From: Bacteroidales bacterium
GTDB lineage: Bacteria; Bacteroidota; Bacteroidia; Bacteroidales; Paludibacteraceae
DNA: 64,000 bases
Direction: 5' to 3'
Assembly: GCA_012519425.1 (NCBI GenBank)
Contig: JAAYQF010000026.1
Location: forward strand, 1 to 64,000
Shown piece after piece: positions 28,580-39,766 of the stretch; position 1 is the first letter of the stretch; each line of letters begins with the position of its first letter. The notes under the pieces were generated by a model, which saw nothing but the letters and a program-made list of their open reading frames with translations, ran no database searches and was not told the origin of the DNA. Both the position numbers and the translations under genes were made by a program.

Positions 28580-28709
28580 GTCTTAAAATGCTGAGTAATA
28601 AAATCTCTTAGATATTTTTACACTTCGGAATCGTGAAGGGTTCCACACTTTAAATTCTTAAATAAAAAGACGGTATCTCATAAACAAATATTCAACTAGT
28701 AAATAGTAA

Positions 28710-28871
28710 GGTGTTTTAGAAGTGTCCAAATGCAAGGCACTGAGATTGAGGGCAAAGGAGCATACTGAAGTATGTGACTGAGCCCGTGCTTCGACAGGCT
28801 CAGCAACCATCGAAAGTAACGTGGTTGCTGAGCGAAGTCGAAGTGCAGCAGTTGGGCACTTATGAAACACC
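28710..28871. repeat. 162-bp MITE-like element with 18-base inverted ends and an inner palindrome
   Basis: The left end GGTGTTTTAGAAGTGTCC (28710-28727) and the reverse complement of the right end, GGTGTTTCATAAGTGCCC (28871-28854), agree at 15 of 18 bases. Inside are a small hairpin CATACTGAAGTATG (28771-28784) and a long imperfect palindrome (28789-28845). The palindrome is built on CTTCGAC and CTCAGCAACCA with a loop around 28812-28820. There is no credible gene inside; the open frame across it on the minus strand lacks any recognisable domain. The structure fits a non-autonomous, REP- or MITE-like element. No target duplication was seen. It marks the left edge of the accessory island. Confidence 0.6.
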
Positions 28872-29113
28872 GCTGAGTTTGGGCGATTTAGCTGCTTGAA
28901 CGCTAATTTTTCGAGCAAAGCGGGCGCAGTCTTGATTTTTTTTTGCTTCGTTTTTTTAGTCTGATTATCAATTGAATTTAATGTCAGATTGTGTGTCGGC
29001 AGATTTGATTTTTGCGAAGCATGGGTAGATTTTTTTGTTTTTTTCTCTGCATTGGCAAAGCAAGCTTTTTCGCTAAGTTTTGGTTTGAGCGTGGGCTTGC
29101 TGATGTACTTGCT
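28872..29113. other. G/T-rich non-coding stretch at the island's left edge
   Basis: About 240 bases of skewed composition: many T-runs on the plus strand mixed with GCTTTGC-, GCGAAGC- and AAGCAAGC-type words. It contains GATTGTGTGTCG (28987-28998), repeated exactly at 36993-37004 on the far side of the chaperone gene group. No gene, tRNA or clear terminator was found. Confidence 0.45.
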
Positions 29114-29425
29114 TTAGCGTTTGGGTTTATTTGGACTTATCCATATTGATAATAATAAACCAATACCTACAATCACATCAACAATATTCCAAATCTCTCT
29201 ACCAAGCGCTATTTTTAAAAAAGGTTGAAACAGTATAGCCAAACCTCCATATATAATCATCTCTACTTGTTTCCCTTTTTTGTAAGCTTGATAAGCAAGA
29301 ATTGCAAAACCAACAAGACCTGCAAATCTTACAAACTGATAAAAACCGTATGGCATATCCAACAAGCACAGAAAGAAAAGACCTGCAAGAACAACTTTTG
29401 TTATTGTAGACAAATTATTTTTCAT
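29114..29425 (-). CDS. Small four-helix membrane protein (DUF6804-like)
   Basis: From ATG 29425 the protein is 103 residues with four hydrophobic helices (TKVVLAGLFFLCLL, FVRFAGLVGFAILAY, MIIYGGLAILFQPF, IVDVIVGIGLLLSIWI) and a short basic tail. The DMPYGFYQFVRF and LGREIWNIVDV motifs resemble DUF6804 proteins, of unknown function. The open frame could begin at 29446, but 29425 avoids a longer overlap; either way the start lies inside the end of the TerB-like gene, so translation is coupled. As the last gene of the group, it may give the system another membrane part. Confidence 0.65.
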   Translation of the reverse strand: MKNNLSTITKVVLAGLFFLCLLDMPYGFYQFVRFAGLVGFAILAYQAYKKGKQVEMIIYGGLAILFQPFLKIALGREIWNIVDVIVGIGLLLSIWISPNKPKR

Positions 29426-29945
29426 CTTTAAAGCTTGAAAAATCAATTGTCTTAATTTCTTTCAATTCGGGGATAGAAATAGTTGAAAGCAAATCACTGA
29501 GGGTTTCATTTTTAACAACGTCCTGTGAGTAGTCTCTATCAAAAAGGTACTCAACTGCACCAAAGCGGTCTCGAATAATTTCATCGTGCAACTCAAGATG
29601 TGAACGAAGAAAACGAATAAATTTAATCTCGTTTTCATCCATTTTTTTATTTGCCATTGCAAGACGTAACGCAACCTCAAGAATTAAAAGCTCCTGAACA
29701 GGGCTTAATTTCGTGGCTTTTAAATATGCATAAAGGTCTTCAATTATGTGTTTTCCTTTTTCTTTAAGAGCAACAAGCAAATCATCTAATTCATCAGATA
29801 AATCAATATCTTTAAAATAGATAGAAGCCTTATTCAGCGCTTTCATTTCCTTAATTTCCATCTCATCGATACACCCATCACAGGCTATCGTGCAAAAGGC
29901 AACTTTAAATAACAAATGTTGAAATTGTTGTTTTTCTAGTGTCAT
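29415..29945 (-). CDS. TerB-like protein
   Basis: The 176-residue helical protein has two TerB-type acidic repeats: ACDGCIDEMEIKEMKAL (about residues 20-36) and MANKKMDENEIKFIRFLRSHL (about 96-116). This D-x-x-(I/M)-D-E-x-E pattern marks TerB family proteins, which bind metal ions and recur in tellurite-resistance and other stress modules. No terC, terD or terZ gene is present, so it is not part of a classical Ter operon. It starts 2 bases after the pseudokinase-AAA+ gene and overlaps the membrane protein gene downstream. The link to the chaperone genes is by gene order only. Confidence 0.72.
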   Translation of the reverse strand: MTLEKQQFQHLLFKVAFCTIACDGCIDEMEIKEMKALNKASIYFKDIDLSDELDDLLVALKEKGKHIIEDLYAYLKATKLSPVQELLILEVALRLAMANKKMDENEIKFIRFLRSHLELHDEIIRDRFGAVEYLFDRDYSQDVVKNETLSDLLSTISIPELKEIKTIDFSSFKDEK

Positions 29946-29947
29946 AT

Positions 29948-31747
29948 TTATTCATTATTTGTAGGACGAAAACCAATACGTGGGCGTTCTTCCTTCATTT
30001 GTAAATCTTGTTTTTCATTATCCCATTTCCTTTTTAAGGCCTCATATTTTCTAATTTCTGTAAGCGAAACTGTAGGTTTATTATCGCTTATTACTTCCAA
30101 AAAAATGGACATTGTAATCCTACCTCTTACCTTCAGAGCTTTTCGGGAAGCTTCGTCTATTAAAAATTTTAAATCACTTGACACGTAGTTCTCTGTCAAT
30201 GAGGCTAATTTGTCATAGTCAAGCCCTAGGTCTATCGGTCTGTCTTTCAAGTAAAGTTTAAACATTGCTGACCTTGCATTCTTGTCAGGTGGCGACAAAT
30301 AAACTGATTTATCCAAACGTCCGGTTCGTAAAATTGCAGGGTCAATTTTTTCAGGACGATTTGTTGCACCAATTACAAAAATTCCTTTTTCTCCACAATT
30401 TGTCATCTGAGCCAAAATCTCATTTACTGCCGAAGCATGCATTTGATGAAGATCTCCTTCTCTTGATGGTGCAATTGCATCTAATTCATCAATAAAAATT
30501 ATTGTTGGCGCTTTTTCTTCTGCTTCTTTGAAAAGTCTTCCAATATTCTCTTGTGTTGCATTAATATATTTACTCTGCAAATCGGAAGGCTTTATCATTA
30601 CAAAATTATACCCAACCTCTTCAGCAAATTTTTGAGCAATAAAAGTTTTTCCACAACCCGGCGGCCCATATAATAACATTCCGTTTAACATTGGAATACC
30701 GTATTCTTTGTATAATTCAGGATCGTTTAAAAAATCTATTACATCTTCTTTGAGTTGTTGTTTAAGGCTTTCCATACCTGCAATTTGATCAAAACCCGTC
30801 CCTTGCTTTTTCTCCTGTTTTCCTCCGGCTTTTACAAAGGTTTTTTGAATGTCATTTGTTTCTATAATCATTTCACGCTTTAACGCTTTGGAAAACTCTT
30901 CTGCGGTTTGAAAACGGTCTTCAATATCAATAGATAAAGCCTTTGTTAATGTGTTTTTTATGTGTTCATCAATTAAATCATCATTCGCAAGGGAAAAATT
31001 TAAAGGTTTACTTCTTGCTGCTTCCAATAATCCTTTCCACTTGTTAATCGGTTGATTTAGGATGTTCTCATTAAAGAAAGGAGGAATACCGAATAGCAAA
31101 TGATACAACAAAGCTCCAATTGAGAATAAATCACTTTGCGGAATAAAAATCCCATTTAGTAATTCAGGCGCAGCATGAAATACCGACAAATACTTAATTG
31201 AAACGCTTTGTCCGTTTTCATGAATAGTCCTCGCTTGTTCAAACCCTGTTAAAATAGGTTTGTCTCTTTTTGACGAATAATCCAGTTTTATTGTATTAGG
31301 ATTTATTCCGTTATGAATTATTGGGTCTGACAGATTATGCAAGTAGTCAATTGCTTCGAGTAGCTCAATAATGATAGGAATTGCAGTATAGGGTGAAAGT
31401 GTTCCTTCTCTTTTTAACCTTTCTGTAAGGGTTTCGCCACTTACAAACTCATAAGACAGAAAAGCAAACTTTTGTTTCTCAATAATGGTTTCGCCTTCTT
31501 CCAAGAGTTTTGGTATATTGTTGTGATTAATTTGATTTAGCAAATTAAGTTGTAATAACTTACCGTTTTCGTCAAAATAAGACGAAGGAAGTGAAGCAAG
31601 ATTAATTAAATCAAGCCTTACAATATTGCCCGAAGTATCTTTTGCCCGATACGATTGGGCAAAAGAATTATTGCCGATTGGAAATTGAATTTCAAATCGA
31701 CCGGCTACAGAAAAACCCTTCTGCAATAAGTTTTCTTTTTCTTGCAT
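29948..31747 (-). CDS. Pseudokinase-AAA+ ATPase fusion
   Basis: The 599-residue protein joins two domains. Residues 15-295 have the protein-kinase fold by motif order, but the catalytic parts are lost: the VAIK lysine site reads VRLD (43-46), the HRDxKxxN loop reads HNGINPNT (145-152), and DFG reads GFE (168-170). Residues 318-575 form an intact AAA+ module of FtsH/Cdc48 type. It has Walker A GPPGCGKT (361-368), Walker B IIFIDE (416-421) and a second region ATNRPEKIDPAILRTGRLDK. There is no protease domain. The ATG overlaps the Hsp70 stop by one base. It probably acts as a remodelling motor whose kinase-like part binds a partner; a separate active kinase is encoded at 38865-39668. Confidence 0.82.
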   Translation of the reverse strand: MQEKENLLQKGFSVAGRFEIQFPIGNNSFAQSYRAKDTSGNIVRLDLINLASLPSSYFDENGKLLQLNLLNQINHNNIPKLLEEGETIIEKQKFAFLSYEFVSGETLTERLKREGTLSPYTAIPIIIELLEAIDYLHNLSDPIIHNGINPNTIKLDYSSKRDKPILTGFEQARTIHENGQSVSIKYLSVFHAAPELLNGIFIPQSDLFSIGALLYHLLFGIPPFFNENILNQPINKWKGLLEAARSKPLNFSLANDDLIDEHIKNTLTKALSIDIEDRFQTAEEFSKALKREMIIETNDIQKTFVKAGGKQEKKQGTGFDQIAGMESLKQQLKEDVIDFLNDPELYKEYGIPMLNGMLLYGPPGCGKTFIAQKFAEEVGYNFVMIKPSDLQSKYINATQENIGRLFKEAEEKAPTIIFIDELDAIAPSREGDLHQMHASAVNEILAQMTNCGEKGIFVIGATNRPEKIDPAILRTGRLDKSVYLSPPDKNARSAMFKLYLKDRPIDLGLDYDKLASLTENYVSSDLKFLIDEASRKALKVRGRITMSIFLEVISDNKPTVSLTEIRKYEALKRKWDNEKQDLQMKEERPRIGFRPTNNE

Positions 31748-34314
31748 TAGTCTGTTAAAAGGCTATCATCACCTGTAAGTATTGGTTTGTCAACGCCAGG
31801 TAATAGTTTATATAATTCAATCACAATTGGTCTTAAAACTTGTTTACTTGGTCTATTTTGAGCTTTAGCAAGTCCTTCATTAATAAGCATTCTCGCTTTA
31901 TTCCTGTCGCTCCAGTCATGCATATCAAATTCTTCATTAAACTGATGTAAGAGAGAAATCTCTAAGCTCGCACCCAAACCAGCATCTACGATTGTAAAAG
32001 CCATACCTCGCATTGAATCAATTAACTCTTTAGCAACTTTTACATTTTTATCTTTAATTACTTGCGGAATTTGTTCTTTAAATTGTGCAATAGCCTCTTT
32101 AACTCTTTCTTCATTCAAGCCATCAACTTTACCTTCAAATTCTTTAAAAGTCTTTTCTAATTTGTAAAAGGCATCTTTTAACTCCTCCTCTGTTTTTGGC
32201 CACTCAATTGAATCTTGTATATCGTCAAGTTTTCGTAAATTTCTTCTAAGGTTGTCCAATACTTGTTTTTTACGGTCGTAATCACTTCGACCTTGTTCCA
32301 ATAATTTTTCAAGTTCAAAAATCTCGTTTGATAGTTTATTCAAAGTATCTTTATCTATAAAGTCGCTTTCTTGTTTAATGATGTTCAAGGTTTGTTTGGC
32401 TTTTGATATTTCTGTTTCAAGCCAATTTGCATCAATTTCTTTTTGTGTTGAATTATTTGGCACTTCAACATCTTGAGCGAAATTTAAATATGGGAAAAAA
32501 GCAGAAAGTGTTATACGTTCAGATTTATCAACTTTAACAGTCAAATCAACATCACTACCTTCTGGTAAAAGTTCGGGTAAATCCTCACCTGTAATTATTA
32601 CATCATAAACGCGTTCATTGTAAATTGCCCTTGACTCTTCTGCACCATAATCACCTTGATAAACAGGAATTTTAATAAAGTCAGAAGATGAACCCGGGTT
32701 AATTTGTTTTTGTGTCTTCAAACCATTGGCTATGCCAGTTGCAGGTGTTGATTGATTTTTCTCAAGTCCTTTGATTGGTCGAAATACGATTTTTCCACTT
32801 GCTTTGCTCTTTATTTCAATCCCAATATTATATGGTAAGGGTGCACTACCAACTTTTGAACCTTGAATAATTGTAAAATCGTTTGGTTCGCTTGGAATTA
32901 AATCGCCTTGCTCATTATAAACAAAAACATTAAAGGCATTTGCTTTGCCTTCATTTAATTTCACTTCTACAACTTCTCCAACATCGTCAATTTGAATTTT
33001 ACCACTTGACCAAGCCTTGTCAGTTCTTACAACTTCGACAAAACATTTTTCAGGAATTTTTCCCTCCGTTTTGTCTTTAAGAATTTTAATTGTTACAAAT
33101 TCCTCATTTTCAACTGTTGTTGGTTCGTATCCTAAACCAAGTTGAATTTTGGTTTTATCTCGGTTTTTTTCAATTATTTCATCAGAAACATTAACAGTTG
33201 AAGCGTATAATGCCGCACCTTTTGCAACTACTGTCATTGGGTCGTAACTTGTGTCAACTTTTTCGGTTACTTGTTCCTTTAACATTTTTCTCAAGATGGG
33301 AGAATGAGTGGGACCTCCAACTAAAATTAATGTGTCTAAATTATTGCCGTTTAATTTATTCCTTTTAAGTAATGCGTTGCAAATATCAATTGCCTTTTGA
33401 AAAATTGGCTTAACAACGGGAGCAAAAATTGATTCAGTTAGTTCTAAATCCAATTCAATTTCTGTTCCTTCATCATCTTCGGGAAAATCGCCAAGATTTG
33501 ATAAGATATCGGTTGAAGGAGCAAAAGACAGAGCAATTTTGGCATCTTCTGCAAAATCTTTCAGAGCATTCCTAAAATATTCTAATTCACTACCTGATAA
33601 AAAAGTGTCTATTTTAAACTTACTTTTTAGATCCGGAATTAGGATCTCATCAACTATTGCGTAATCAATATTTTTTCCTCCTAAATAGTTGTCTCCTTCA
33701 GTATCTATTACTTTCATTATACCGTCTTCAACTTTTAGCAATGCTGCGTCAAAAGTACCACCACCAAAGTCAAAAACCAACCAAAGACCGTTTTTACTTG
33801 TTGAATCTAAACCGTATGCCATTGAAGCTGCAATAGGTTCTTGCAATAATTCGCAGTGCTCAAAACCTGCAAGTTTTGCGGCTCTTGAAGTTGCATCTTT
33901 TTGATTTATAGTAAATTTTGCAGGAACAGTAATAACAACTGATTTTATTTCTTCGTCTGTAATAAATGATTTTAGCTTTTTTAATACTTCGGAAGATAAT
34001 TCTTCTGAAGTATAATCTTTATTCATATTAGAACTACTATACATTTTGTCAGTTCCCATCGTACGCTTAAACTCTATGAAAGTATTTGCATCTGATTTCA
34101 TGGTTTTTAAGGTGCGTAATCTATCTGAACGAAACTGATTTGCAGCTGCATCACCAGCAATAATTGATTGTTTTTTGTTAAAATTAACACATGAAGACAT
34201 TGTATCTTTCAATGTATCAGTTTTCTTTATTACCGGTTCTCCATTTTCCATTCGGGCAATGGCAGAATTTGTAGTTCCTAAATCTATTCCGTAATCAATT
34301 TTTGTTCTTGCCAT
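31747..34314 (-). CDS. Long Hsp70-family chaperone
   Basis: The 855-residue protein has an Hsp70 ATPase domain with the phosphate-1 motif GIDLGTTNS (residues 9-17), VVITVPAKFTINQKDATSRAA (126-146) and the phosphate-2 motif FDFGGGTFD (181-189), plus LILVGGPTHSPILRKML. It is about 215 residues longer than DnaK. The substrate-binding region is divergent, and a long charged helical tail (about 650-800) looks like a coiled coil. The DnaK-type C-terminal signature is absent. It is flanked by a J-like gene and a GrpE-like gene upstream and an AAA+ gene downstream, so it is a dedicated accessory chaperone rather than the housekeeping DnaK. Confidence 0.9.
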   Translation of the reverse strand: MARTKIDYGIDLGTTNSAIARMENGEPVIKKTDTLKDTMSSCVNFNKKQSIIAGDAAANQFRSDRLRTLKTMKSDANTFIEFKRTMGTDKMYSSSNMNKDYTSEELSSEVLKKLKSFITDEEIKSVVITVPAKFTINQKDATSRAAKLAGFEHCELLQEPIAASMAYGLDSTSKNGLWLVFDFGGGTFDAALLKVEDGIMKVIDTEGDNYLGGKNIDYAIVDEILIPDLKSKFKIDTFLSGSELEYFRNALKDFAEDAKIALSFAPSTDILSNLGDFPEDDEGTEIELDLELTESIFAPVVKPIFQKAIDICNALLKRNKLNGNNLDTLILVGGPTHSPILRKMLKEQVTEKVDTSYDPMTVVAKGAALYASTVNVSDEIIEKNRDKTKIQLGLGYEPTTVENEEFVTIKILKDKTEGKIPEKCFVEVVRTDKAWSSGKIQIDDVGEVVEVKLNEGKANAFNVFVYNEQGDLIPSEPNDFTIIQGSKVGSAPLPYNIGIEIKSKASGKIVFRPIKGLEKNQSTPATGIANGLKTQKQINPGSSSDFIKIPVYQGDYGAEESRAIYNERVYDVIITGEDLPELLPEGSDVDLTVKVDKSERITLSAFFPYLNFAQDVEVPNNSTQKEIDANWLETEISKAKQTLNIIKQESDFIDKDTLNKLSNEIFELEKLLEQGRSDYDRKKQVLDNLRRNLRKLDDIQDSIEWPKTEEELKDAFYKLEKTFKEFEGKVDGLNEERVKEAIAQFKEQIPQVIKDKNVKVAKELIDSMRGMAFTIVDAGLGASLEISLLHQFNEEFDMHDWSDRNKARMLINEGLAKAQNRPSKQVLRPIVIELYKLLPGVDKPILTGDDSLLTD

Positions 34315-34335
34315 AATATTTTGATTTTTTAGTTT

Positions 34336-35244
34336 TTACTCGCCTTGACTAACTTCAATTTGTGCTGATTGTATCATAACACCTTTAAAGTTTACTTGTG
34401 GCTTTATTATTCTTGTTATAATTTGCTCATCTGGTTTTAAGTTTTCATCAGGTTTAAAATTAGCTGTAACTTTCATACCAGCATCATAAGGTTTATTTAG
34501 CATATCAACTATCTCATAACCATTACCCTCAAAATTTGCTTGAATACGTTTTACTGATGCTGCTAATTGCTTTAAACCTCTTGTTTCGGCATCCATGTTA
34601 TTGATGTTTTGTTGAATACGGATTATCTCGTCAGCAACTTTTAAAGCTAATGAATGGTCAACATCTTCGACTTTGACCAAAGATGTTTGCTTTTCCTCAT
34701 TCATGAGTTGCATTTGAGTATCAAGTAATTTTATTAACTGACCATCGAGTTTTAATTGTTCTTCTCGTAAAGAATCAGAGGTTTTTTTAATTTGATCTGA
34801 AAGCCCAGTTTTCTCTTTGCCAAGTTGTTTCTTAAGCCAACCAAAAAGAAGGACTGACAACAAAGCGATAAATAATACCGCAATTATCCAATACAAGGTG
34901 TTTTTACTTACAGTTTTACTTAATGTCGAAAGGTCTGCACTTGCTTTATCGCTTGTTTCTTGAATTTTAACACCAAGATTATCTGCGATTGTCTGTAAAT
35001 TGCTATTTGTGTTTGCCAAATTATCTTTCAAAATATTGAGACTATCAGTGGTGGCTGATAGCCTTTTATCAATTTTTTGAATAATGACATTTGCCGTATT
35101 TAACTGATTTGCCAGACTTTTATTCGAGGCTTCAAGTTTTTCGATACTGTTTTGTAACTGTTGAATAGTATCAGTTTTAGCTTGTGCAAATAAAGCAACG
35201 CTAAAAATTCCAATAGCAGTTATTGTTAAAAGTATTTTTCTCAT
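34336..35244 (-). CDS. Membrane-anchored coiled-coil protein with GrpE-like C-terminus
   Basis: From ATG 35244 the protein is 302 residues. It starts with a signal-like segment (KILLTITAIGIFSVALFAQA), then about 90 residues of coiled coil outside the membrane. One membrane helix (YWIIAVLFIALLSVLLFGWL, 118-137 from this start) leads to a second helical region of about 95 residues and a small beta domain. The end (YEIVDMLNKPYDAGMKV, ITRIIKPQVNFKGVMIQSAQ, IEVS) follows the order of motifs in the GrpE head: a (Y/F)D loop, an aromatic-glycine turn, and a final strand. The GrpE likeness is my reading and needs a profile search. The longer frame from 35283 would overlap the J-like gene. It lies 21 bases upstream of the Hsp70 gene. 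Confidence 0.6.
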   Translation of the reverse strand: MRKILLTITAIGIFSVALFAQAKTDTIQQLQNSIEKLEASNKSLANQLNTANVIIQKIDKRLSATTDSLNILKDNLANTNSNLQTIADNLGVKIQETSDKASADLSTLSKTVSKNTLYWIIAVLFIALLSVLLFGWLKKQLGKEKTGLSDQIKKTSDSLREEQLKLDGQLIKLLDTQMQLMNEEKQTSLVKVEDVDHSLALKVADEIIRIQQNINNMDAETRGLKQLAASVKRIQANFEGNGYEIVDMLNKPYDAGMKVTANFKPDENLKPDEQIITRIIKPQVNFKGVMIQSAQIEVSQGE

Positions 35245-35263
35245 ATTATTATTTTTATTCACA

Positions 35264-36928
35264 TTATTCACAAATTGAAACAATCAAAATAAATAAGCCA
35301 ATACCAATTACCCATAGAATCCACTTTTGAACTGGAGTATCTCCAAAAAATACAATGCCAGTATTTAGTTGCTTAAATAAATCTTTCAGCGTATTTTTAT
35401 TTTTGTTATAATGTTCTCTCTGCTTGTTTGACATATCAAAAACTCCTAAACTTACCGTTGCTCTCCATGCATCTGAAATAACATTTTTAAGCTTTTCTAG
35501 AGAATATTCAGGAGCATAGGGTATATTCTCTCTCAAAAAGCCACAGCTCCAACCTGACATTGATAGTCCACTAAATGGGCCATTTATATAATTAAGATAC
35601 TTGACATAGTTATTTCGTTTTTCCATCGCATCGTTTACAGTAGTAACTATCATCCCTAATGCATTACTAGCCACAGCAGTACTAATTTTAGAATACAATT
35701 CATCATGTGCTCCCAATTTTAATTTCATATTATCAAGACGAGGTTTGCATGAATTTGCAAAATTTGTAGCATTGGAAATTGTATCATCAAGTGATTGAAA
35801 TTCTTCAAGTTTGTCAGTAATAAATTTCAAATCATCTCGTACGATATTCTGTTTATCCCTGTAGGGTTTATCGGCTATCCATTCTTCAATAATTTTAAGA
35901 TTTTCATCAATTCTATTACGAACTTGTCCATTGGTGGAAATATCTTTAGCTAATTTTACAACTTTATATGCTGTATCACCTGGGTCTATATCATTCTTTT
36001 TTTGATGTACATTAAAATATTCAATAGCACATTGCAGAATTTCATTTGCCAATTTATTGGCAATCATTTGATATTGTACATTATTTGAACCCCAAACGTT
36101 TTTTAGAAAGACCAAATCTTCTTTTGTGTTTTTATAAAGTTCTTCGCCATATTCCTCTGCATCGTTTGGGTTATCGTTTCTTTTTTGTTTAGTAATTTCA
36201 ATTTGGTTTTCAATATTGTTTAGAGGTCTGTCAGTAAACTTGCCCGAAACATATTGTTTTATTTCATTAGGGAAAGAGCTAAATGCATTAATTAATTGAC
36301 TTGATTTTATGCCATTGGGTTTATTCAGGTATGGTTTAACTATTTGCAGAATCTCTTCAGCAAACTCTTTCAATATAATATCACGATTTAACGAAATACC
36401 TTCTCCTATTACTGTAGTAACAAAATTATTGAACACATCCGACAAAATTAGTTTTCCTTTTAAATCAATAGAAGCTGAAAACTTTTCAGGGTCAAACGAG
36501 CCATTATAAGTAGCAATTCCAAGTTGAAGTGTCGAAAGGTTGCTTATTGCAGCGAAGTTTTTAGCCGTTACCGCTGAATCTTTTAAAGTTTTTTCCCAAA
36601 TCTCGGCAGCCTTTTCAATATGCCCTTCCTTAAGATTATCCAATGCAGCTTCGTCAATATGTCCGCTGTTTAAAAACCAAAAAAGAGCATAATGAACTTT
36701 GTTTTTTGCTTGTTCTATTTTACTTGCCGCTTCTTGTACCTTTTCTGCGTTGCGAACAACTTCTCCAAAAAACGAAAAATCATAGTCAAACGCCTTCGTT
36801 TTTCCAACTTCTGCAAATCTCTTTATGGTTGCAATTTGCCTTTGAAGTTCCCTTTCAGATGAGTTTCCAAAAAGTCCAAGCGTTCTGTAGGGATTATTTA
36901 TTACTACATTCATATCTGTTGAGTTCAA
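35264..36928 (-). CDS. J-domain-like protein with C-terminal membrane anchor
   Basis: The 554-residue protein opens with NNPYRTLGLFGNSSERELQR followed by a helix and KIEQAKNKVHYALFWFLN. This is the layout of the divergent J-like domains found next to accessory Hsp70 genes. The HPD tripeptide that classical J-proteins use to stimulate Hsp70 is absent, so the interaction must differ. Residues 90-510 are mostly helical with no recognised domain. The last 22 residues (PVQKWILWVIGIGLFILIVS) form a single membrane helix with almost nothing after it, a tail anchor. It is the first gene of the chaperone group. Confidence 0.65.
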   Translation of the reverse strand: MNSTDMNVVINNPYRTLGLFGNSSERELQRQIATIKRFAEVGKTKAFDYDFSFFGEVVRNAEKVQEAASKIEQAKNKVHYALFWFLNSGHIDEAALDNLKEGHIEKAAEIWEKTLKDSAVTAKNFAAISNLSTLQLGIATYNGSFDPEKFSASIDLKGKLILSDVFNNFVTTVIGEGISLNRDIILKEFAEEILQIVKPYLNKPNGIKSSQLINAFSSFPNEIKQYVSGKFTDRPLNNIENQIEITKQKRNDNPNDAEEYGEELYKNTKEDLVFLKNVWGSNNVQYQMIANKLANEILQCAIEYFNVHQKKNDIDPGDTAYKVVKLAKDISTNGQVRNRIDENLKIIEEWIADKPYRDKQNIVRDDLKFITDKLEEFQSLDDTISNATNFANSCKPRLDNMKLKLGAHDELYSKISTAVASNALGMIVTTVNDAMEKRNNYVKYLNYINGPFSGLSMSGWSCGFLRENIPYAPEYSLEKLKNVISDAWRATVSLGVFDMSNKQREHYNKNKNTLKDLFKQLNTGIVFFGDTPVQKWILWVIGIGLFILIVSICE

Positions 36929-37145
36929 AATGTTATTGTTCTTAATCGTAGATCAATTGAAAATTGGCTCTTATGGCTTTGCGTAAGATTAGGATTGTGT
37001 GTCGCCTTTTCTCGTTCTATATCTGTCGGTAATGTTATTATATTTTCATTTTTTAAAGTCTGTTTATCAGGGTTGAAGTGTCTTTTTACCATTACTTATA
37101 ACAGTTGAGTGTAGCAGCAGTAAGGGATTGCGGAATAGTTTTCTG
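36929..37145. other. Non-coding stretch between the two island gene groups
   Basis: About 217 bases with no gene. It contains GATTGTGTGTCG (36993-37004), the exact 12-base repeat also at 28987-28998, and a short inverted repeat CAATTGAAAATTG (36953-36965). No Bacteroidota promoter for the chaperone group was found here, although the gap is the natural place for one. Confidence 0.45.
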
Positions 37146-37694
37146 TCAATCGAGACAAAAACTTGAGCGGGCCACAATGCTTGTCCCTGGAGAAACCCTT
37201 ACGGCATTTACATTTTGTTGGCAACTGGTGTTCTTGTCCTTATGGTTAATAAGAATTTCTATATTTTTTGATTTTTTTTTACTTGAGCTTATACTTTCAA
37301 CTAATTTTTGATTTAAGTTGTGTGAATATGGTGTCCCAAATTCGGGCTTATACAAAATTTCAAAGTAACTGTCGGTATTAAATTTAGCTAAGCCAATATT
37401 GTATTTTTTAAATAATTCTAAGTTGTTTAATGCGGCATTAGCACTTTTACTTGAAAGTACTACATAAGAGATATTTGAAAAGCTTTTGTAACGGAAAGCT
37501 TGTTTAGCTGCTTTCTTCCAATTTTTTAGTTTCAACTCAAAAGAAATTATGGAAATTTCTTGTTTTTGTTTGATATAAAATACAAAGTCAGGAATGCCAA
37601 ATAAACCTTGACATTCTTTGAGATAGGCATTTCCGAAATTTGCTTTCAGATATTTCTCAAACATTAACGACATTTCTAATTCCGTTTGAAACAT
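37146..37694 (-). CDS. PD-(D/E)xK nuclease-like protein
   Basis: The 182-residue protein contains GIPDFVFYI (residues 33-41) and, 15 residues on, FELKLKNWKKAAKQAFRYKS (52-71). Together these give the PD...ExK catalytic pattern (Asp36, Glu53, Lys55) followed by the helix that usually carries Gln and aromatic residues in this fold. All catalytic residues are present, so nuclease activity is plausible. The last 35 residues look unlike the rest and may be read-through into a cassette-edge sequence. It is 2 bases downstream of the unrecognised 388-residue protein. Confidence 0.68.
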   Translation of the reverse strand: MFQTELEMSLMFEKYLKANFGNAYLKECQGLFGIPDFVFYIKQKQEISIISFELKLKNWKKAAKQAFRYKSFSNISYVVLSSKSANAALNNLELFKKYNIGLAKFNTDSYFEILYKPEFGTPYSHNLNQKLVESISSSKKKSKNIEILINHKDKNTSCQQNVNAVRVSPGTSIVARSSFCLD

Positions 37695-37696
37695 TA

Positions 37697-38863
37697 TTAT
37701 TTGGTTAATTCTTTTTGAAAAGCATTAATAACATTGAACCAAGTGGGCAAATGGGAACCATCGCTATTCTCATCCAAAAGGACTTCATTTTCTATTTTCT
37801 TGAACAAGGTTAAAGCATTTTTTATTTTGCATTTCAGCTCTTCAATTCTGCCTTCTTGTGTAGAAGGTAAACTTTTTATTTGTCTGTCGAACACATAGAA
37901 ATAATGCTTATATGGTTCAGACTTTGCAAAATGCCACTTAAATTCAGGAGTAAACATCAGTGGTCTATATTCTGAATCGTCAAAGTAATTTGCATAATCG
38001 GGCATTAATTTTTTCATTGCTTGAATATATTCGTAATCTACCCATTGCAAAAGATAACTACTGTATAATCTTGCATTGGGTGCCCTCATTTGGCTTTTTT
38101 CCATATCTTGGAAGCGTTTGATTCCAAATGAACGCAAGTTTTCATAAGACCCAATTGTAACAGAATCGGGCATCGCAATACTATATAAAAGAGCTTCGGT
38201 GTTACTATAACCCAAATGAACTTCCATTTGATTATCTTTTAAAACTTTAATAAACTTTAAAGCATTTAAAAGGTAATCGAAATCTTTAATTTGTTTACTT
38301 GTAAAGTTGTTTTCAAGGATCAGATAAACACCTTCAATATTTTGATGTCCTGTAATCCAGTTTAGAACTTCATTTCGTTTTTCTTCATCCGAAAGCATTA
38401 TTGTTTTTACAATTACTGAAAGGAGAATCTTTTTTTGAATATTTTTATTCCTAATATAATCGCAAAACGGGGTCACAAAATAATCAGTGCTTTGAGAAAA
38501 AAAAGTGGTCGGATTATCAGTATAATATCTTGATGGGATTATTAAATACTCAAAATTATTTTGTACTTGGTAATCTACACACAATTGAGCCAATTGAATG
38601 TGACTGTTATCTAAATCGGGTGTTGCAAAGTCTGGTTTTATATTACCAGGGAAATAAGGGTAAGTATCTAAAGTTCCTTTTGCCTCATATAATAAATAAA
38701 GTTGAGGGTCAAGAAATCCTGAATGTTTCAGTTTAACATCTAATGCTAATAGTTTATCAGCATCAATGTTTATGGGAGAATAAATCAAACCATTTCCAAC
38801 TCCATTTAAGAAACTTTCAATATTCCATTTATATCTAAATCCCGTTTGATGATATACTTTCAT
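37697..38863 (-). CDS. Unrecognised 388-residue protein between kinase and nuclease
   Basis: I do not recognise this family. The N-terminus has GVGNGLIYSPINIDADKLLA, then FLDPQLYLLYEAKG and YPYFPGNIKPDF. Alternating helices and strands through the middle (KKILLSVIVKTIML, NIEGVYLILENN, QMEVHLGYSNTEALLYSIAM, SVTIGSYENLR) suggest an alpha/beta barrel. There is no signal peptide, membrane helix or nucleotide-binding loop. The gene starts 1 base after the kinase stop and ends 2 bases before the nuclease-like gene, so the three products are probably made together. It could be the sensor or substrate of the kinase; this is inference from gene order. Confidence 0.6.
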   Translation of the reverse strand: MKVYHQTGFRYKWNIESFLNGVGNGLIYSPINIDADKLLALDVKLKHSGFLDPQLYLLYEAKGTLDTYPYFPGNIKPDFATPDLDNSHIQLAQLCVDYQVQNNFEYLIIPSRYYTDNPTTFFSQSTDYFVTPFCDYIRNKNIQKKILLSVIVKTIMLSDEEKRNEVLNWITGHQNIEGVYLILENNFTSKQIKDFDYLLNALKFIKVLKDNQMEVHLGYSNTEALLYSIAMPDSVTIGSYENLRSFGIKRFQDMEKSQMRAPNARLYSSYLLQWVDYEYIQAMKKLMPDYANYFDDSEYRPLMFTPEFKWHFAKSEPYKHYFYVFDRQIKSLPSTQEGRIEELKCKIKNALTLFKKIENEVLLDENSDGSHLPTWFNVINAFQKELTK

Positions 38864-38864
38864 A

Positions 38865-39668
38865 CTAAATTTGTTTTGCGATAAAAGCGTTTAACATCTT
38901 ATAATTTCTGAACCTTTCGTAAGGTTGCGTTTGCAAGGTTTTATTTGCAAGTTCTACAATTACTCCATCACGTTTTTTTGTATCAGTTTCTACAACATAT
39001 TTGTTCTGCATTATATTTTCTACAATTGAGAATTGATTTCCAACACAAGCAGGGTCATACGGATGGACACCTAAATACAGTTCCAGTACAATAATTCCTA
39101 GACTAAAAAAATCAGTTCGTGGGTCAATTAAATTTTTATTGTTAGCTAGTTGTTCAGGTGCTGCATAGATTGGAGTACAGGGTCCCATCGGTGAAATTGT
39201 TTTAGTCAGTGATTCTAAATCTAAAAAACGCGCAATGCCTAAATCAATAATGCAGGGCATACCATTAGGGCGAATAATAATGTTTTCAGGTTTTAAATCT
39301 CTATGAACAATATTTTTATCCCAAATAACAGAAAGTCCTTTTATCAATGAATTGAAAAGAGTGAATATTTCTTTAGTTGTTTTAAATTCTGTCATTACTT
39401 CTCGTAATACCTTGCCTTCAATATAATCCTCTACAATTTCAAATTTTTTAGTTTTTACATCAATGTTAAAATGGTGTTGTTTCGGATAAAAGTCAGATTC
39501 TAATTCAGAAAGCAACTCCACCTCACGTTTAATTCTTTCAAGCGATGTGAAACTTTTTATTGTCCCCTCTTTAATGACCACCTTACCAACTTTGGAGTGT
39601 TCAGCCAAGTGAACTATTTTCTGTCCGCCTTGTGGTAATTCTTTTATTATTGTACAATCTCTAATCAT
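38865..39668 (-). CDS. Ser/Thr protein kinase
   Basis: The 267-residue protein is a bare kinase domain. VVIK supplies the ATP-binding Lys33, Glu49 in the next helix is the likely salt-bridge partner, VHRDLKPEN (121-129) is an intact catalytic loop, and IDLGIARF (141-148) is the DFG-type metal site with Leu for Phe, a tolerated change. There is no sensor or membrane domain, so signals must come from partners. It leads the kinase-unknown-nuclease group and starts right behind a -7 promoter box. A pseudokinase-AAA+ protein in the neighbouring group is an attractive partner or target. Confidence 0.87.
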   Translation of the reverse strand: MIRDCTIIKELPQGGQKIVHLAEHSKVGKVVIKEGTIKSFTSLERIKREVELLSELESDFYPKQHHFNIDVKTKKFEIVEDYIEGKVLREVMTEFKTTKEIFTLFNSLIKGLSVIWDKNIVHRDLKPENIIIRPNGMPCIIDLGIARFLDLESLTKTISPMGPCTPIYAAPEQLANNKNLIDPRTDFFSLGIIVLELYLGVHPYDPACVGNQFSIVENIMQNKYVVETDTKKRDGVIVELANKTLQTQPYERFRNYKMLNAFIAKQI

Positions 39669-39672
39669 ATTG

Positions 39673-39680
39673 CAAAGTTA
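39673..39680 (-). promoter_or_regulatory. -7 box immediately before the island kinase gene
   Basis: TAACTTTG on the minus strand ends 5 bases before the kinase ATG. With the usual spacing, transcription would start at or within a few bases of the start codon, giving a leaderless or nearly leaderless message. The -33 partner is not evident. Confidence 0.4.
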
Positions 39681-39766
39681 ATATTAAATCTTCAAATCTT
39701 CTTTATCAAGACAAAAAAATGAAGAGGGATGACAAGGTCACAAGGTCTCCGGAACTGATTTATAAT

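Follow-up and report, generated by a model that had tools for sequence, protein, structure and literature searches.

The window, a 64,000-nucleotide stretch of a Bacteroidales contig (JAAYQF010000026.1), carries on its minus strand an operon whose genes run in the order solenoid/J-like protein, coiled-coil membrane protein, Hsp70, pseudokinase-AAA+ fusion, TerB-like protein, and DUF6804 protein. The leading gene (35264 to 36928) encodes an all-helical solenoid protein, as judged by profile comparison and predicted helices, with a J-domain-like N-terminus (36662 to 36913) lacking the HPD motif, and the next (34336 to 35283) encodes a coiled-coil protein with a signal-like N-terminal segment, a transmembrane helix, and a C-terminal domain (34339 to 34665) that is GrpE-like in hhalign comparison. 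They are followed by an 855-amino-acid Hsp70 (31747 to 34314), with intact NBD motifs and, by eye, an SBD-beta-like region and a helical tail, and by the 599-amino-acid fusion protein (29948 to 31747, start codon ATG), delineated from its open reading frame, Pfam matches, and alignments. The operon ends with a 176-amino-acid TerB-like protein (29415 to 29945; Pfam E value of 1.4e-4, just below the gathering score, with no other Ter domain in the module of the window) and a small DUF6804 membrane protein (29114 to 29446; Pfam E value of 7e-35). The original prediction dealt with the fusion protein and overlooked these partners, namely, the Hsp70, the GrpE-like factor, the J-like solenoid, TerB, and DUF6804. 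Downstream of the DUF6804 gene, a small basic open reading frame was seen in the window and also at loci L007, L009, L113, and L114.

Comparison with G938, a genome of the same genus, showed that the operon lies in an insertion of ∼11 kb (about 11,054 bp; 28653 to 39705): in G938 the two flanking genes stand side by side, with 284 bp at the position of the island. The GC content of the island is 0.33, versus 0.40 in its flanks, and at its left end (28780 to 28850) it becomes repeat-like and contains both cttcgacaggctcagc and its inverse. Besides the operon, the island holds a second unit (37146 to 39668) consisting of an intact kinase gene (38865 to 39668), a gene for a 388-amino-acid protein (37697 to 38863), and a gene for an HSDR_N-like protein (37146 to 37694).

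Domains and catalytic motifs of the fusion protein

The N-terminal half of the fusion (residues 15 to 295; 30863 to 31705) was delimited as a pseudokinase domain from profiles, motif alignment, and dN/dS ratios. Pfam Pkinase matched residues 23 to 283 (E value of 1e-21), and a phmmer search with residues 1 to 303 returned more than 800 distinct PDB chains, with protein kinases on top (best E value of 5e-19). In the AlphaFold2 model of the fusion (mean pLDDT of 69, falling below 50 in the former catalytic and activation loops), residues 18 to 289 follow, with moderate confidence, the kinase element order of beta1-3, alphaC, beta4-5, alphaD/E, and alphaF-I. Since the best Foldseek matches of the whole model, p97/Cdc48 and FtsH, came through the AAA+ half, the kinase fold rests on the sequence profiles and this element order. 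With both lobes matched and the elements in canonical order, the N-terminus is predicted to adopt the protein kinase fold (PKL), which agrees with the original prediction of a kinase fold in residues 15 to 295 whose order has outlasted its motifs.

The motifs themselves read as had been claimed, that is, VRLD, HNGINPNT, and GFE at the three catalytic sites. The VAIK site is IVRLDLIN, with D46 in place of Lys; the HRD loop is IIHNGINPNTI, with Asp changed to Gly (G147) and the catalytic Asn to Thr (T152); and the DFG site is ILTGFEQAR, with G168 in place of Asp. The Gly-rich loop (IGNNSFAQSY) is degenerate too. Of the structural residues, the domain still has the APE Glu and the alphaF Asp, as well as an Arg close to where the C-lobe ends. 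Considering that Lys, HRD Asp, Asn, and DFG Asp are all replaced, the window protein is, as far as its residues tell, not an active Ser/Thr protein kinase.

The C-terminal half (residues 316 to 560; 30068 to 30802) is the intact motor that had been described, with Pfam AAA matching residues 357 to 484 (E value of 1e-38). Walker A (GPPGCGKT), Walker B (IIFIDE), sensor-1 N463, and the arginines R474 and R477 of the second region of homology (SRH) are all present, and the aromatic pore residue is Y394. These residues, together with the FtsH/CDC48 profile matches and the Foldseek result, place it among the predicted classic-clade AAA+ domains. FtsH and p97/Cdc48 are the nearest AAA+ domains by both profile and fold, but the fusion has no peptidase domain, p97 N-domain, or second AAA+ domain; no match to the FtsH zinc peptidase was obtained in the fusion, which has just 39 residues beyond residue 560. 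A ClpB/Hsp104 make-up was not seen either, the AAA+ domain being single and ClpB not being among the listed family matches. Alignment of homologues also marked the C-terminal tail, RPRIGF (29969 to 29986), as a candidate docking motif. The RPxIGF pattern occurs in most homologues and recalls, by analogy only, docking tails or the IGF loops of the AAA+ partners of peptidases.

Homologues and graded loss of kinase residues

Motif states were compared in an alignment of 16 homologues. Four other assemblies (L005 to L008) encode proteins 86 to 91% identical to the window fusion that have the same motif losses, and the 5'-truncated copy L009 has the GFE site in common with it. Among the near copies, dN/dS ranged from 0.08 to 0.14 in the pseudokinase domain and from 0.03 to 0.08 in the AAA+ domain. 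Because L005 to L008 have the losses in common with the window and purifying selection acts on the pseudokinase (dN/dS of about 0.1), this domain is neither the product of a local sequencing error, a possibility raised beforehand and now ruled out, nor a relic.

Conservation of the losses, which the original prediction had proposed to check, held in this close group but did not extend through the family. L021 retains the Gly-loop, K, D, N, and DFG, and L113 to L115 retain K, D, N, and DFG, such that these proteins may be active kinases; the HNE group (L017, L019, L020, and L116) keeps K, N, and DFG with the HRD Asp lost; the window group retains none of the catalytic kinase residues; and the kinase half of L025 is a degenerate remnant only. 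At the HRD triplet, L021 has HRD, L113 to L115 have HND, the HNE group has the residues it is named after, L018 has HNN, the window group has HNG, L022 has HKS, and L024 has FNS; in L025 the triplet is gone. The catalytic residues of the AAA+ domain are all retained in every one of the 16 homologues, and the structural residues of the kinase fold in 15 of them; an aromatic pore residue (Tyr, Trp, or Phe) is likewise found in 15 of 16. Thus, the family, spanning intact to fully degenerate members, offers a natural series for the transition from kinase to pseudokinase beside a strictly constrained partner motor. On the AAA+ and Hsp70 trees, the HRD Asp must have changed at least twice and DFG two to three times, with the direction of loss not proved because the root and the long branches of L021, L022, L024, and L025 are unsure.

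The window protein and L021 are 29% identical in the kinase half and 55% in the AAA+ half, whereas L017 and L020 are 71% identical in the kinase half and 51% in the AAA+ half, and these opposite patterns suggest that modules have exchanged AAA+ domains. Homologues of the fusion were not found in 198 spirochaete genomes, in a search that had no positive control.

The chaperone module and its genomic company

The order J-like, GrpE-like, Hsp70, and kinase-like-AAA+ was kept in 14 of the 15 loci where it was visible, including one plasmid and one proteobacterial-looking viral contig; L022 is the locus with a rearranged order. Most loci also have the TerB-like gene next to the fusion (absent in L024 and L025) and a conserved DUF6804 gene. 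The Hsp70 stop codon and the fusion start overlap by 1 base in the window, L005, L007, and L017. The Hsp70 NBD motifs in the window are DLGTTNS, FDFGGGTFD, and LVGGPTHSP, and those of the main Hsp70 copy are intact at every locus. A second Hsp70 paralogue that has lost its phosphate-binding motifs (DLGTTNS gone, GGGT altered) was noticed within two modules (L008:7687-9999 and L115:9794-12250), where these pseudo-Hsp70s lie beside the pseudokinase. A KilA-N gene is found between Hsp70 and the fusion at L008:6650-7690 and L006:1177-2007, and L008 retains, after its first Hsp70, 31 codons from the start of the fusion as a remnant.

By hhalign comparison, the membrane protein ends in a domain homologous to GrpE (probability of 95.3, P value of 2.2e-8, and score of 54.6, versus 19.9 for the best of 30 column shuffles), and GrpE was also, weakly, among its PDB profile matches. 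A Pfam search with the single sequence returned nothing, the homology being visible only by profile-profile comparison, and the domain is assigned here for the first time as a putative GrpE-like exchange factor. The counterparts of the membrane protein in L024 and L025 are 128 to 129 amino acids long, without a membrane segment. A scan of viral contigs with the GrpE-like alignment recovered the contig of L024, already known, and, with doubt, a segment of a 4006-amino-acid phage protein. The window's own genome (G000) gave no GrpE match and one J-domain match, maybe owing to assembly gaps (94.7% complete).

At its N-terminus, the solenoid protein has J-domain-like features, namely, NPYRxLGL, helix II, and ALFWF. 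The hhalign comparison gave a probability of 62 and a score of 27.2, against 13.6 for the best shuffle, over just 22 columns; a PDB search gave five weak matches, two of them to J domains, and the predicted helices are compatible. Foldseek returned helical-solenoid matches only, none with an E value below 0.001, and did not confirm the J domain, and the HPD motif is absent from this region in every homologue. The assignment as a J domain is weak. A relative of the solenoid protein is annotated as CFI-box-CTERM in NC_015512. Judged by these profiles, the module has the Hsp70 and the GrpE-type factor of the DnaK-DnaJ-GrpE triad but not a J domain with HPD.

The module is rare and scattered, occurring in about 1 to 2% of the sampled genomes of the phylum. 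The FtsH proteins of the L005 to L009 genomes are 48 to 65% identical to that of the window genome, and the far higher identity of the fusion indicates that the module moved recently. Mis-binning is possible for several of the close copies, which stem from metagenome bins, and the worry of contamination is eased because L007 lies on a 101-kb contig and L008 on a 32-kb contig. Inspection of the neighborhoods, with no background rate for comparison, showed defense genes near the module: plasmid pHALHY02 carries a BREX system and a SIR2 gene, L020 has type I restriction-modification genes (HsdM/HsdS), and NACHT or NB-ARC proteins occur in L007 and L021; KilA-N and RhuM genes were found in L008 and a transposase in L113. 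For one neighbor in L021, a resemblance to DUF4062 seen by eye was not borne out by Pfam. On L024, an IMG/VR contig, a HigA/HigB-like toxin-antitoxin pair was recognized by eye near the module (L024:18358-19816).

Proposed role and alternative explanations

We give an even chance to the reading that explains these observations best, in which the module is a mobile, self-contained Hsp70-GrpE-AAA+ chaperone machine with the eroded kinase fold as its docking or regulatory part and with phage or mobile-element complexes as its probable clients. The Hsp70, the membrane-anchored GrpE-like exchange factor, and the solenoid co-chaperone with its degenerate J-like domain would capture clients near the membrane and pass them on to a p97/FtsH-type AAA+ ring, which would unfold or disassemble them; the aromatic pore residue kept in 15 of 16 homologues argues for threading. 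The kinase fold, whose catalytic sites would have eroded repeatedly, would no longer phosphorylate in the window lineage and could instead link the motor with either Hsp70 or the client, in a role resembling that of the ClpB M-domain, and the RPxIGF tail possibly docks a further partner. As clients, complexes of phages or mobile elements are made probable by the defense-island company and the horizontal travel of the module; host proteins that these have damaged are the other candidates. A defense role of the module is likely. The docking or sensing role proposed originally is probably right for the pseudokinase, now as part of a chaperone machine: purifying selection on the domain makes it the likeliest role in the window lineage, but docking by itself cannot explain the domain in every member of the family, since L021 and L113 to L115 are possibly active. 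If true, this would mean that a transferable chaperone machine, complete with an Hsp70, an exchange factor, and an unfoldase of its own, exists in bacteria in defense-island settings, that a kinase fold was converted into a non-catalytic adaptor of an AAA+ motor, and that proteostasis machinery is tied to antiviral conflict. A bolder form, a new class of mobile immune system in which the full Hsp70-GrpE-AAA+ machine has a pseudokinase adaptor that recognizes phage complexes and delivers them for forced disassembly, is an unlikely proposition by our own estimate.

The module might instead serve mobile protein quality control or envelope stress, with no specific antiviral role and with neighbors that reflect shared insertion hotspots. 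Its recognizable parts are all of chaperone type (Hsp70, GrpE-like, AAA+, and TerB), no conserved nuclease, NADase, or other obvious killer was found in it, and PADLOC holds no system model that matches it; nevertheless, the rare, patchy spread, the recent long-range transfer, and the BREX, restriction-modification, and NACHT neighbors fit a conflict role better than housekeeping, and we rate this explanation as somewhat unlikely. For the kinase half, the fold could be alive for other chemistry, as in SelO, which AMPylates, and SidJ, which glutamylates, or as a nucleotide-binding sensor. Canonical pseudokinases have proved active in other cases. SelO and SidJ are cited as such cases (PMC13174449). 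The HNE-group relatives, with K, N, and DFG retained despite the lost HRD Asp, would suit such an activity, but the window lineage has lost the Lys that anchors ATP, the Asn that binds metal, and the DFG Asp, and we consider this alternative improbable. That the kinase half is a useless, decaying remnant could be read from the lost motifs in the window and from the remnant in L025, but the purifying selection and the fold residues retained in 15 of 16 homologues largely rule out decay, to which we assign a negligible probability.

The intact kinase of the island bears on a further alternative. The original prediction had noted an active kinase gene nearby, and the gene is there, but it belongs to a separate unit, which recurs in genome G139 (L155:8167-11404) beside a PP2C gene, without the chaperone module, and was found at none of the other module loci. 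Judged by this distribution, the unit is an independent passenger of the same island and possibly a system of its own. Although the kinase shares the inserted island and the strand with the fusion and lies about 7 kb from it, its own two-gene company and its occurrence apart from the module make it very improbable that it acts as an upstream partner, phosphorylating or regulating the fusion.

Comparison with known systems underlines what is particular to the module, of whose gene set no description was found in the open-licence literature. Bacterial Ser/Thr pseudokinase families (ActPs1-3, GLW, CP1, DYD, and DLHK; PMC12599244) likewise have a kinase fold with divergent catalytic motifs, with a predicted ATPase (COG3899) attached in CP1 and a DEAD-like helicase in DLHK. 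No AAA+/FtsH, Hsp70, or Bacteroid- partners are mentioned for them, and they are set apart by their described partners only; the present family has an FtsH/p97-type AAA+ partner, with members from intact to fully degenerate. Like DnaK-DnaJ-GrpE with ClpB/Hsp104, the module places an Hsp70, an exchange factor, and a J-like protein beside an AAA+ remodeling motor, but its motor has a single classic-clade AAA+ domain with the pseudokinase in the place of the M-domain, its GrpE-like factor is membrane anchored, its J-like domain lacks HPD, and it is mobile. The chaperone-centered conflict systems of Kaur et al. 2020 (PMC7159879) share the logic of NTPase plus chaperone and GTPase/HSP70/GrpE themes, and many of their kinase domains are inactive. 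Those with HSP70 and GrpE rest on MoxR-vWA or GTPases (PMC7159879), whereas the module has no MoxR, vWA, GTPase, or tubulin and differs in its gene set and phyla.

Among defense systems, Shango (PMC10250203) also combines a TerB-like protein with an ATPase in defense hotspots, but it has a helicase, which the module lacks, and it lacks Hsp70, GrpE-like, and kinase-fold parts. PADLOC 2.0 returned no complete system, with kinase and AAA matches at the superfamily level only and none for Hsp70 or TerB, and membership in a known defense system was rejected on that account. The AAA+ half is similar to IetA of IetAS at this level, without the IetS protease in the module, and the kinase half is similar to the kinase system PD-T4-6, with the catalytic residues lost. 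Finally, a sister AAA+ family lacking both the kinase fold and the chaperone module was observed at L117, L118, L119, and L023, some members of which have a short helical N-terminus.
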